From: a virus
Virus record (IMG/VR): IMGVR_UViG_3300021963_000828
Coordinates: 1 to 20,188 of that record
Strand: one strand, 5' to 3'
Length of the DNA stretch: 20,188 nt
The position numbers and the translations under genes are program-made. Below, one piece after another: positions 14,171-17,077 of the stretch; the first letter of the stretch is position 1, and every line of letters begins with the position of its first letter. A model generated the notes under the pieces. It saw only the letters and a list, made by a program, of their open reading frames with translations. It had not been told where the DNA came from and did no database searches.

Positions 14171-14416
14171 TTAGAATGGCATATCGTCTGGCATATCATC
14201 AAAGCCTGTAGATTTAGACCTTGCTGATGGTTTTGCTTGTGGCTCTTTAGGTGAGAGTGCTAGTCCCATGAACTTGCCTCCCTTACCTTCTTTAATCCAT
14301 GCAGATAGCCAAAAATCTTGACCATTTACTGTAATGTTACCTTTGTAGTCAGGATGGTTGCCTGTTTCTTTTTTGTCGTTCTTAAACAGAACACCTGAGT
14401 TGTCACGCTTTTCCAT
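14171..14416 (-). CDS. Putative single-stranded DNA-binding protein with SSB-type C-terminal tip
   Basis: An 81-residue protein. Residues 1-55 form a short beta-rich unit ('NSGVLFKNDKKETGNHPDYKG', 'ITVNGQDFWLSAWIKEGKGG', 'FMGLALSPKE') compatible with a small OB-like fold. A Lys/Ser/Pro-rich linker follows, and the last residues are 'GFDDMPDDMPF', closely resembling the acidic SSB C-terminal tip (DDDIPF in E. coli) that recruits recombination and replication proteins. The TAATG overlap with the upstream annealing-protein gene supports a joint recombination role. It is shorter than bacterial SSB, and the core does not show the classical SSB signature, so the binding activity is inferred. Confidence 0.65.
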   Translation of the reverse strand: MEKRDNSGVLFKNDKKETGNHPDYKGNITVNGQDFWLSAWIKEGKGGKFMGLALSPKEPQAKPSARSKSTGFDDMPDDMPF

Positions 14417-15033
14417 TAGATTTCCTTTGCTTTCTTTAACGCTGAACGCACTTTACTGGGAAGCAGTGTCCAGAGAGCTACTTTTTGTTCGCTATCTAGG
14501 TTCTCTGATTCCAACTTAACCCAAGCTGCCTTGGGATCACCTTGCTCACAAGTAGCAATTAATTCAACTGCTAACTCTTGCAAGTACTGTAATTCCTCTG
14601 GAGGAATATTATCCATTGCACCTTGTGTTGGTGTAATAACAACTTTATCTGATCGTCCACCCTCTTCTGGAAGGTCCTCACCTGCATAGATGTATAAACC
14701 GAGTCCATGCAAGCTAAGTGCTTTTGTCATACAACGCATGATGGCTGTATTAACTTGGAAAGCATCAGGATTAGGGATGGCTTTATTTCGATAGTCCATC
14801 ACAGGAAGTTGGCAGGTCATTGGTTTGCCAAACATGGTGGCAGTAACAAACACCATTGCCGTACCATTGATATCCATGAAACACTTGTCACCAAACATTT
14901 CTACCTTGTAGGACGCTGTAGGATCAGCTTTGAGAGCCTCTGCCCAAGCCCATGCCCATGACAGGTAGGTCAGATTATTTTTCTTCTCTGTGTGAGAATT
15001 AACATCTTTCTTCAGTAACGCCTCTATTGACAT
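14416..15033 (-). CDS. Single-strand annealing recombinase, DUF1071/Sak3-like
   Basis: A 205-residue protein; the ATG at 15033 is five bases after AAGGAG (15044-15039), whereas the upstream GTG overlaps that site. The N-terminal 120 residues show the DUF1071 pattern: 'KKNNLTYLSWAWAWAEALKADP', 'VFVTATMFGKPMTCQLPVMDYRNKAI', 'VNTAIMRCMTKALSLHGLGLYIYAGEDLPEE'. That family (PF06378) groups with Sak3 single-strand annealing proteins, Rad52-superfamily recombinases of phages. The C-terminal 70 residues are helical and variable. Together with the SSB-like gene downstream it forms a recombination pair; no partner 5'-3' exonuclease is seen next to it, although a small PD-(D/E)XK gene lies at 17359. Confidence 0.85.
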   Translation of the reverse strand: MSIEALLKKDVNSHTEKKNNLTYLSWAWAWAEALKADPTASYKVEMFGDKCFMDINGTAMVFVTATMFGKPMTCQLPVMDYRNKAIPNPDAFQVNTAIMRCMTKALSLHGLGLYIYAGEDLPEEGGRSDKVVITPTQGAMDNIPPEELQYLQELAVELIATCEQGDPKAAWVKLESENLDSEQKVALWTLLPSKVRSALKKAKEI

Positions 15034-15043
15034 ATTCACTCCT

Positions 15044-15226: not shown

Positions 15227-15381
15227 TGGATACGCTCTACCTTCTTTGCCAACAAGTATTTGTCACCAAGTCTAAGAACAGATCTAACCCACTTACGCTG
15301 GTTATGTTGGTTGATATCTTCTGAAACCAACTTGTTGTTGTAAAGCTGTCTAGCCTTACGCCTTAATTCTTCTGTATTCAC
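15223..15381 (-). CDS. Small basic protein, first gene of the leftward operon
   Basis: The frame is open further upstream, but the best start is the GTG at 15381, five bases after AGGAG (15390-15386), giving 52 residues. The longer form from 15429 would read through the promoter region and DnaA box. The product is basic and helical ('NTEELRRKARQLYNNKLVSE', 'NQRKWVRSVLRLGDKYLLAKK'), suggesting nucleic acid or protein binding. Function unknown. Confidence 0.6.
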   Translation of the reverse strand: MNTEELRRKARQLYNNKLVSEDINQHNQRKWVRSVLRLGDKYLLAKKVERIQ

Positions 15382-15396
15382 ATTCACTCCTATTTG

Positions 15397-15426
15397 TTTA
15401 TAAAAAATGTGGATAATTGCTGTCCA
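15397..15426 (-). promoter_or_regulatory. Candidate leftward sigma70-type promoter
   Basis: On the minus strand TGGACA (15426-15421) and TATAAA (15402-15397) are 18 bases apart, each one mismatch from consensus. Transcription would begin near 15390, right at the ribosome site of the first leftward gene, giving a very short leader. The only other spacer feature is the DnaA box lying between the two hexamers. Confidence 0.5.
15408..15416 (-). promoter_or_regulatory. Perfect DnaA box (TTATCCACA)
   Basis: TTATCCACA, the high-affinity E. coli-type DnaA box, reads on the minus strand at 15416-15408, between the -35 and -10 of the candidate leftward promoter. Only one perfect copy was noticed here, so it may act as a promoter-linked DnaA site rather than an origin, or be chance. 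Confidence 0.45.
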
Positions 15427-15453
15427 CACCGATAATGTGCCACATAGATTCCA

Positions 15454-15483
15454 TAATTTACATAGGTGTTTTCCCTAATTTAC
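15454..15483 (+). repeat. Direct repeat TAATTTAC, 22 bp apart, candidate operator
   Basis: TAATTTAC occurs at 15454-15461 and 15476-15483, each preceded by CC plus one base. The start-to-start distance of 22 bp is about two helical turns, so both copies face the same side of the helix. They overlap the candidate rightward promoter and may bind a regulator. Confidence 0.45.
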
Positions 15484-15507
15484 GCAACTTTTTTATCATG
15501 CTAGGCT
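15479..15507 (+). promoter_or_regulatory. Candidate rightward early promoter, weak, near-leaderless
   Basis: TTTACG (15479-15484) and TAGGCT (15502-15507) are 17 bp apart and the second has an upstream TGC (extended -10). An alternative -10 is TATCAT at 15494-15499 without a good -35. Either would start transcription within about 8 bases of the ATG at 15514, for which no clear Shine-Dalgarno exists, so a leaderless message is possible. Confidence 0.35.
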
Positions 15508-15513
15508 CATGGT

Positions 15514-15693
15514 ATGAACATCGAACAAATTGAACAAAAATGTGCAGAAACATTGCTTGATTACGCAATCACAATGTGTAATGCTTATGTTGACGAACCA
15601 GAGGACTTCAATGCTGCAGTTGTCGCACTGCTAGTTAGAGCATTAGAAAACCATGTAAATCGTCCTATCAACATCCAGGAAATGTACCAATGA
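15514..15693 (+). CDS. Small acidic helical protein, first rightward gene (59 residues)
   Basis: The ATG at 15514 opens a 59-codon frame ending in TGA at 15693 in an ATGA overlap with the winged-helix gene. The product is acidic and helical ('NIEQIEQKCAETLLDYAITM', 'DFNAAVVALLVRALENHVNR'). No known domain is recognised. It might be a partner or antagonist of the regulator it is coupled to. Confidence 0.6.
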   Translation: MNIEQIEQKCAETLLDYAITMCNAYVDEPEDFNAAVVALLVRALENHVNRPINIQEMYQ

Positions 15694-16058
15694 CACAAGC
15701 CAAGGTAATTAAAGCACTCCAGAATGGACCTTTGACCTCACATGAAGTAGCCAATTTAACTGGTATGCCACAGGCAACAGTACTGTCTACTGCTAAAAAA
15801 CTACGCCATCAAGATAAATTGACAACAGAAATAGTCAAAGTTGGCAAACACTGGGTAGCTCAGTACACGCTAGATGATGATCTTATCGAGTACAAACCAA
15901 AGAGAGATGATGAGGAAACACGCTGCAAGCTGAATCCTTTTGATATTCGCAATGCAAAGGGTATTTTTACACCTGCTGAGTACAAAGTGATGAACGCTCA
16001 AGCTCGTAGGATTTACAAATCAAGCCCAACAGAGATCACAAATAATCAATTTATTTAA
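15690..16058 (+). CDS. Winged-helix transcription regulator
   Basis: A 122-residue protein starting in an ATGA overlap. Residues 1-55 form a clear winged helix-turn-helix: 'AKVIKALQNGPLTSHEVANL', 'TGMPQATVLSTAKKLRHQDKL', and a wing 'EIVKVGKHWVAQYTL'. The C-terminal 60 residues are basic and contain 'FDIRNAKGIFTPAEYKVMNA' and 'ARRIYKSSP', perhaps for dimerisation or DNA contact. A candidate promoter with a duplicated element lies over its own stop codon, so autoregulation or control of the downstream replication operon is plausible. Target sites are not known. Confidence 0.75.
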   Translation: MTQAKVIKALQNGPLTSHEVANLTGMPQATVLSTAKKLRHQDKLTTEIVKVGKHWVAQYTLDDDLIEYKPKRDDEETRCKLNPFDIRNAKGIFTPAEYKVMNAQARRIYKSSPTEITNNQFI

Positions 16059-16086
16059 GTTTACAGTAGGCTTTTTTAAGTTTACA
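16054..16086 (+). repeat. Direct repeat TTTAAGTTTACA, 21 bp apart
   Basis: The 12-mer TTTAAGTTTACA occurs at 16054-16065 and 16075-16086, exactly 21 bp (two helical turns) apart. The first copy overlaps the stop codon of the winged-helix gene and supplies the -35 of the promoter described next; the second supplies most of its -10. Confidence 0.8.
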
Positions 16087-16088
16087 AT
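16060..16088 (+). promoter_or_regulatory. Strong candidate promoter for the replication operon
   Basis: TTTACA at 16060-16065 and TACAAT at 16083-16088 are separated by 17 bp, each one mismatch from the sigma70 consensus. Transcription would begin near 16095, leaving a leader of about 93 bases before the DUF1376 gene. A repressor binding the duplicated 12-mer would cover both hexamers. Confidence 0.65.
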
Positions 16089-16187
16089 GTTTTGAAACAC
16101 GGCTAGGAATGGATTGATCCCCGTTCCGAAAAGAGTTACTCCCTCTCCTGCCGCAGTTTCTTTTCAAGGGAGCATAAAAGGCGAGTT
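16089..16187 (+). promoter_or_regulatory. Untranslated leader with possible hairpins
   Basis: No gene is seen between the winged-helix stop and the ATG at 16188. Two inverted pairs are visible: GGAA...TTCC around GGA-TTGA-TCC (about 16105-16127) and CTCCCT (16139-16144) with AGGGAG (16167-16172). The likely ribosome site is AAGGCGAG just before the ATG. No T-run follows either stem, so they do not look like terminators. Confidence 0.35.
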
Positions 16188-16955
16188 ATGCACTACTACC
16201 AGTTTAATATTGGTGACTACCAAAGTCACACTTCACACCTTTCTGAAATTGAAGATCTAATCTATAGGCGATTGCTTGATTGGTACTATCTCCATGAAAT
16301 TCCAATTCCACTTGATGAAGCTGAAGTATCTAGACAGATAAGGATGCGTTCGCATACCGAAAGCATTGCAATCGTATTGCAAGAGTATTTCGAGCGCACA
16401 GATGATGGATGGATTCATCATAGGGCAAACAAGGAAATAGCTAAAGCTGGTGATAAATCAGAAAAGGCAAGTGCCTCTGCTAAAGTTAGATGGGGTAAGA
16501 AGGATGCGAACGCATTGCCAACGCAATCCGAAAGCAATGCTACACATAACACATTACACATAACACAAGACACAGAACACAAGACACAAAAGAAAGCAAC
16601 TGTCGTTGCAACACCTGTCGGTGTTTCTGATTCTGTTTGGCAGGAATTCAAATCTTTGAGGAAAGCCAAAAAAGCACCAATAACACAGAGAGCAATTGAC
16701 GCATTAACCAATGAAGCAAGCAAGGCTGGTTGGACTTTAGAGAAAGCCTTAGAGGAATGTATTGTTCGTGGTTGGCAAGCATTTAAAGCTGATTGGGTTG
16801 TTAAACCAAACCCTGCTGACAACATAAGGCTCACATTAGCTGCGTCAAATGAACCTGATCCTGCATTGTTAAAAATTAAGCAGGATGAAAAAATAACTCG
16901 TCCTCCAACACCAGAAGAACGAGCAATTCTTAACGCTTATAGGAGAAAAGCATGA
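16188..16955 (+). CDS. DUF1376-family replication-type protein
   Basis: A 255-residue protein. Residues 1-100 show the DUF1376 (YdaU-like) pattern: 'MHYYQFNIGDYQSHTSHLSE', 'EDLIYRRLLDWYYLHEIPIPLD', 'RTDDGWIHHRANKEIAKAG', then 'ASASAKVRWGKKDANAL'. A Thr/His-rich low-complexity linker follows (about 110-140), and a helical C-terminal domain ('SVWQEFKSLRKAKKAPITQRAIDALTNEA', 'ALEECIVRGWQAFKADWV') of the type found at the end of phage replication initiators. Family members sit where lambda O-like proteins do in many phages, so a DNA-binding initiator or loader role is inferred. It heads the operon behind the repeat-containing promoter and overlaps the next gene by four bases. Confidence 0.78.
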   Translation: MHYYQFNIGDYQSHTSHLSEIEDLIYRRLLDWYYLHEIPIPLDEAEVSRQIRMRSHTESIAIVLQEYFERTDDGWIHHRANKEIAKAGDKSEKASASAKVRWGKKDANALPTQSESNATHNTLHITQDTEHKTQKKATVVATPVGVSDSVWQEFKSLRKAKKAPITQRAIDALTNEASKAGWTLEKALEECIVRGWQAFKADWVVKPNPADNIRLTLAASNEPDPALLKIKQDEKITRPPTPEERAILNAYRRKA

Positions 16956-17077
16956 ATGATGAAGGATGGAAAGTTTTTGGCGAACTAATGGAAATTCTCA
17001 AAGATAGATTTGATGACCAAGAAAAAAGAATAAAAGAACTTGAGGAACAAATTAAATGTCTCACCACGAAGCCATGA
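16952..17077 (+). CDS. Small coiled-coil protein (41 residues)
   Basis: The ATG at 16952 overlaps the DUF1376 stop as ATGA and follows AGGAG by eight bases. The product is one charged helix ('KVFGELMEILKDRFDDQEKR', 'IKELEEQIKCL'), likely a coiled coil. Function unknown; coupling suggests a partner of the replication protein. Confidence 0.55.
   Translation: MNDEGWKVFGELMEILKDRFDDQEKRIKELEEQIKCLTTKP

Follow-up and report, generated by a model that had tools for sequence, protein, structure and literature searches.

A predicted int-alpA-type three-way-junction RNA upstream of a phage replication gene carries a loop complementary to two sites in its own leader

In a 20,188-nt stretch of viral DNA taken from the IMG/VR record IMGVR_UViG_3300021963_000828 (hereafter the window), the gene for a predicted replication initiation protein of the DUF1376 family is preceded by a leader RNA predicted to fold into a three-way junction, and the 9-nt loop of its third hairpin, P3 (TTACTCCCT), is complementary to two sites located further downstream, s1 and s2, the second of which covers the Shine-Dalgarno sequence (SD) of the gene (Table 1). 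The RNA, its fold and the pairing between loop and sites are well supported by the comparison of related sequences, which also identifies the RNA as a divergent representative of the int-alpA type (Rfam RF02996). The reading that we favour, and consider probable, is that of a self-addressed antisense leader, that is, a promoter-driven folded RNA whose P3 loop would pair with s1 and s2, block the SD and limit synthesis of the replication initiator.

Table 1. Features of the leader region (window coordinates, except for the last row, which refers to the viral locus L079).
Feature	Position	Strand	Evidence or remark
12-mer copy 1, TTTAAGTTTACA	16054..16065	+	Covers stop of the 15690-16058 gene; gives -35-like TTTACA at 16060-16065
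12-mer copy 2	16075..16086	+	Pair kept only in the window, L002, L011 and L048
-10 box TACAAT	16083..16088	+	Predicted transcription start 16094-16095, the first bases of P1
Three-way-junction RNA (P1, P2, P3), int-alpA-like	16094..16160	+	Rfam match, fold z, covariation, own covariance model
P1 5' strand, GAAAC-A-CGGC	16094..16103	+	Pairs with 16150-16160
P2 hairpin, GGAATGG...CCGTTCC	16106..16127	+	All 6 scored pairs changed on both sides
Invariant linker GAAAAG, P2 to P3	16128..16133	+	Comparison of leaders
P3 hairpin, GAG-TTACTCCCT-CTC	16133..16147	+	100% of cells paired; loop 16136-16144 is the putative antisense address
P1 3' strand, GCCG-CA-GTTTC	16150..16160	+	P1 partner of 16094-16103
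Site s1, AAGGGAG	16166..16172	+	Complements P3 loop; duplex -10.4 kcal/mol; just 3' of P1
Site s2, AGG(C)GAGT	16179..16186	+	Over the SD; complements P3 loop with one bulged base; duplex -7.7 kcal/mol
DUF1376 / phage primosomal, O-like replication initiation protein (putative regulated gene)	16188..16955	+	PF07120, E 1.2e-23; phrog_6451 primosomal protein, E 7.4e-39
Second cassette of L079	3144-3066	-	Before HNH-like gene; s1/s2 match own loop

After the promoter, the elements of the leader follow each other in the order P1, P2 hairpin, GAAAAG, P3 hairpin, CTG and P1'. Viral contigs encoding relatives of the DUF1376 protein were fetched (n = 80). An alignment of 26 leaders had 94.9% pairing over the 18 pairs of P1, P2 and P3, as compared to 41-53% when the partners were slid against each other. 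In the same leaders, 66 cells had changed on both sides of a pair, whereas shuffles gave 17.3±3.1. The core (16094-16160) folds into this shape with a z of -2.63, equal stability being reached in 3 of 200 shuffles, while the minimum free energy of the whole leader (16089-16210) was not special (z -0.50). Furthermore, a covariance model made from the leaders scored the window at 89.6 bits and matched directly 5' of the DUF1376 gene in 74 of the 78 viral loci having upstream sequence; the exceptions were L047, L055 and L056, with no match, and L057, in which the copy precedes another gene. A different leader, with a GAATCAG/CTGATTC stem, a CCCCTGAA segment and a perfect downstream complement, TTCAGGGG, lies 160 nt before the DUF1376 start in L047; it had no Rfam match and perhaps represents a further class of RNA built on this principle.

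The sequence-only reading of this DNA had drawn attention to a 12-mer that occurs twice, 21 bp apart, in front of the leader. Exact copies of TTTAAGTTTACA were confirmed at 16054-16065 and 16075-16086, with no further exact copy within the window, and a 12-mer recurring at so short a distance (within 40 bp) is unusual, simulated windows giving an expectation of 0.08 each. As that reading stated, the copies supply TTTACA (16060-16065) and TACAAT (16083-16088) around a 17-bp spacer, which together agree with the sigma-70 consensus at 10 of 12 positions. A bare promoter match of this quality means little, since 7.2 kb contained 11 of them against a shuffle expectation of 14.9. In addition, a -10-like box, often of the extended form TGnTATAAT, was present in 50/50 non-redundant relatives; because the search spanned 18 positions, its mere presence is weak evidence, and its clustering at one distance, most commonly 14 nt 5' of the CTA of the RNA, is the stronger point. 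Given that the box keeps a nearly constant distance to a conserved RNA, and that the first helix of this RNA opens at 16094, the promoter at 16060-16088 is probably real, with a predicted start at about 16094-16095, in agreement with the start near 16095 that had been proposed.

The same reading proposed that a repressor, such as the product of the upstream gene (15690-16058), could bind both 12-mers and cover the -35 and -10 elements as an autoregulatory switch. The pair is improbable by chance and sits on the promoter, and the upstream product weakly matches an ArsR-type HTH (E 2.6e-4, narrowly missing the cut-off), all of which would fit such a repressor; the distribution of the repeat does not. 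Both copies, with up to two mismatches allowed, were found in only 4 of 77 leader-carrying loci, a set including the window and genome loci, and these four (the window, L002, L011 and L048) were also the only ones among the 19 loci in which the end of the upstream gene is retained, so that the pair was lost in 15 of 19 while the -10 box stays. The place of the repeat is taken in L007, L010 and L015 by one TTTGATACAAT stretch with an extended -10 box. Loss of the repeat in most relatives that retain the genes is the outcome that the sequence-only reading had itself named as counting against it, and we regard a repressor acting on the 12-mers as very improbable. As few relatives retain both copies although the -10 box persists, the repeat is probably incidental and the RNA downstream of it the feature of interest. 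The idea of an autoregulatory switch may hold in spirit, with the evidence placing the switch in this RNA and not in a DNA operator. The window also encodes a Sak-type single-strand annealing protein (14416-15039, minus strand; PF06378, E 1.5e-39), whose gene runs divergently from the HTH/DUF1376 operon.

The complementarity between loop and leader was evaluated by a permutation test with one representative per distinct loop, comprising 26 viral cases, 38 genomic int-alpA RNAs and 1000 permutations. In the viral set, complementarity to the own loop reached 6.15 nt at the first site (permuted 4.29±0.21, maximum 4.96) and 4.69 nt at the second (permuted 3.45±0.19, maximum 3.96), and 0 of the 1000 loop permutations attained the observed match. 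The genomic int-alpA loci, whose downstream genes are unrelated, behaved similarly, with 5.97 and 4.89 nt at the two sites against permuted maxima of 5.13 and 4.21, and a control region upstream showed no excess (3.62). Complementarity peaked at positions -25 to -19 and -12 to -7 relative to the ATG, the s1 zone and the SD zone each being significant by itself. Site s1 lies mostly 14-17 nt past the CTG in the viral set, and s1 and s2 are mostly 10-16 nt apart. In several subgroups s2 has one extra base with respect to perfect pairing, as in GG(C)GAG, GGGG(C)GTG and AAG(T)GGG, and some s2 matches are short or bulged, such as AAG(C)GG in the TTAACCCTT group. Both C-rich loops and SD-like sites are common in these leaders, and the matches might merely reflect a purine-rich SD facing a C-rich loop, with the RNA serving some other role, e.g. 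in protein binding or mRNA stability. The permutation preserves C-richness, however, and own loops still matched far better; the s1 zone, which contains no SD, was as strong as the SD zone; and the non-SD loops ACTTATCAC and TTCCCACTTTT each pair at two sites, with GTGATAA twice and AAGTGG twice, respectively. We consider this explanation very improbable.

Comparison across relatives indicates, furthermore, that the loop, s1 and s2 evolve together. The window, L007 and L065 have P1 in common and a nearly identical P2; their loops are TTACTCCCT, AAGTCTCCC and AATAGACCC, and both s1 and s2 have changed to match each of them. In L079, two cassettes with near-identical promoters carry the loops AACACCCCC and TTAACCCTT, each matching its own leader, and one of them lies before DUF1376 and the other before an HNH-type gene, as judged by eye. 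A further hairpin, GCATAA...TTATGC at 16170-16193, encloses the SD and the start codon and is specific to the window; it was not seen in relatives such as L041 and L048 and was treated as incidental.

According to the antisense reading, the promoter at 16060-16088 would start a transcript of which the first ~67 nt fold into the P1/P2/P3 junction. Most likely, some transcripts would end or be cut past P1, and the freed RNA could pair with s1 and s2 on other transcripts, among them transcripts from a superinfecting relative. Pairing at s2 would block ribosome binding at the DUF1376 gene and lead to less replication initiator, while s1, beside P1, would probably hold the loop in cis on uncut transcripts. 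As s2 lies over the ribosome-binding site of a replication gene, this gene is probably silenced. From these sequences we infer transcription, release or processing of the core, pairing in trans, translational repression as the direction of the effect, and a role in immunity or copy-number control. No terminator or processing site able to release the RNA was identified in the leader.

A switch acting in cis only has to be taken seriously as an alternative: pairing in cis would couple the evolution of loop and sites just as pairing in trans would, so that this coupling cannot distinguish the two. In such a switch the P3 loop would form mutually exclusive pseudoknots with s1, leaving the SD free, or with s2, blocking it, with no diffusible RNA and with the state set perhaps by a ligand, a protein, temperature or the transcription rate. 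RNA and target are on one strand and probably on one transcript, and the nearly fixed start of s1 past P1, together with the narrow range of s1-s2 spacing, also fits a purely cis pseudoknot. Against this, the predicted transcription start coincides with the 5' end of P1 in many loci, as though the RNA were a unit, and the downstream genes are unrelated (DUF1376, HNH endonucleases, DNA methylase and unknown cargo), which argues against a single shared ligand. We regard the cis-only switch as rather unlikely and retain the self-addressed antisense leader as the preferred reading.

Int-alpA-like leaders also stand before genes other than DUF1376. Second RNAs precede HNH-type genes in five viral loci (L009:3415, L024:5438, L034:4540, L048:4239 and L070:5947), with loops that differ from those of the DUF1376 copies; Pfam recognised HNH_3 downstream of the RNA in L009 and L048, and in L057 a DNA methylase gene lies under such a leader. 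The HNH_3 gene of the window itself, at 1398, is without one. Among further genes under int-alpA leaders, 17 of 20 proteins had no Pfam match, and a PADLOC search of 10 proteins gave no match to anti-phage defence.

The assignment to the int-alpA type is based on several lines of comparison. The RF02996 model matched the window RNA over its full length with 26.8 bits (E 0.001), a score below the gathering cut-off of 35.8 bits, and orthologous leaders at the same position in L029, L032, L048, L072 and L082 scored above it (36-38 bits). RF02996 matches above the cut-off were also present in Thalassomonas phage BA3 and Acinetobacter phage phiAC-1. The window RNA and int-alpA share the architecture P1-[P2]-CGAAAAG-[P3]-CCUG-P1' followed by an AAGGG tail, and in the window P1 encloses P2 and P3, with CUAG, CGAAAAG and CCUG at the junction. 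Additionally, our model R1, built solely from these leaders and one copy of the HNH/methylase type, recognised 17 int-alpA loci of bacterial genomes at E <= 1, all at the expected place and not counting the orthologous leader L095; it had no other match in 158 kb and none on P1 C4 or P4 CI. The window RNA differs from int-alpA in its shorter P3 and longer P2, and its surroundings differ as well: instead of following an integrase gene, it has a small HTH gene on its 5' side, a phage replication gene on its 3' side and a -10 box of its own. Many genomic int-alpA copies do follow integrase-like genes, as in E. coli TD225-C4, where integrase, int-alpA RNA and a hypothetical gene follow one another and isrK and C4 RNAs lie farther on in the same region. 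Int-alpA, isrK and C4 RNAs occur together in one integrated element of E. coli (L165:2503-4293). In L097, L116, L102 and L106, the gene ends upstream of the RNA resemble, by eye, HTH antitoxins or RelE-type toxins and not integrases.

The class, reportedly described in a 2017 paper, is annotated as 'sRNA' in Rfam, and the literature searched gave no function for it, naming int-alpA merely as a genome match. It is widespread in the proteobacterial genomes sampled: of 398 genomes from the phylum of a Nitrosomonas reference, 51 contained RF02996 (E <= 1e-5), as did 36 of 274 from the class of that reference; a search for plasmid copies found none. Two-site complementarity was present in most of the int-alpA copies read. 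We propose tentatively, as a possibility on which we stop short of an even judgement, that the whole int-alpA class may consist of self-addressed antisense RNA cassettes, in which a variable loop matches its own leader alone at two sites, providing orthogonal repression channels for replication genes, endonucleases and cargo genes as well as RNA-based immunity groups. The antisense reading provides an orphan Rfam class with a testable function; if the wider proposal is true, int-alpA copies within one phage or genome would be separate channels of repression and define immunity groups.

RNase P processes the C4 antisense RNA of phages P1 and P7, the loops of which bind to their target mRNA at its ribosome-binding site (PMC5320573; PMC12197685); C4 has two addressing elements, a' and b' (PMC5320573). 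Membership of the window RNA in the C4 family was rejected, as the RF01695 model, which scored 68.8 bits on P1 and 74.9 bits on the satellite P4, gave no match at E <= 5 in 15300-17000; likewise, RF02996 found nothing above its cut-off in P1 or P4. The likeness lies in the way of working: a three-helix RNA stands 5' of its target in the same direction, and a P3-type loop has its complement further downstream, at the ribosome-binding site. By this analogy, the leader probably acts like P1 C4 or P4 CI RNA in repressing the downstream gene. The systems differ in that C4 uses a' and b' whereas the present leaders address both downstream sites with a single loop, and in that P1 has an upstream c4-a1b1 target family whereas these leaders have no upstream excess of complementarity. 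As the address is just ~7-10 nt long, specificity from phage to phage should be readable from sequence. Our data suggest that RNA address control of the P1 C4 / P4 CI type is far commoner than those two systems, and that it serves the replication initiators of uncultured phages.
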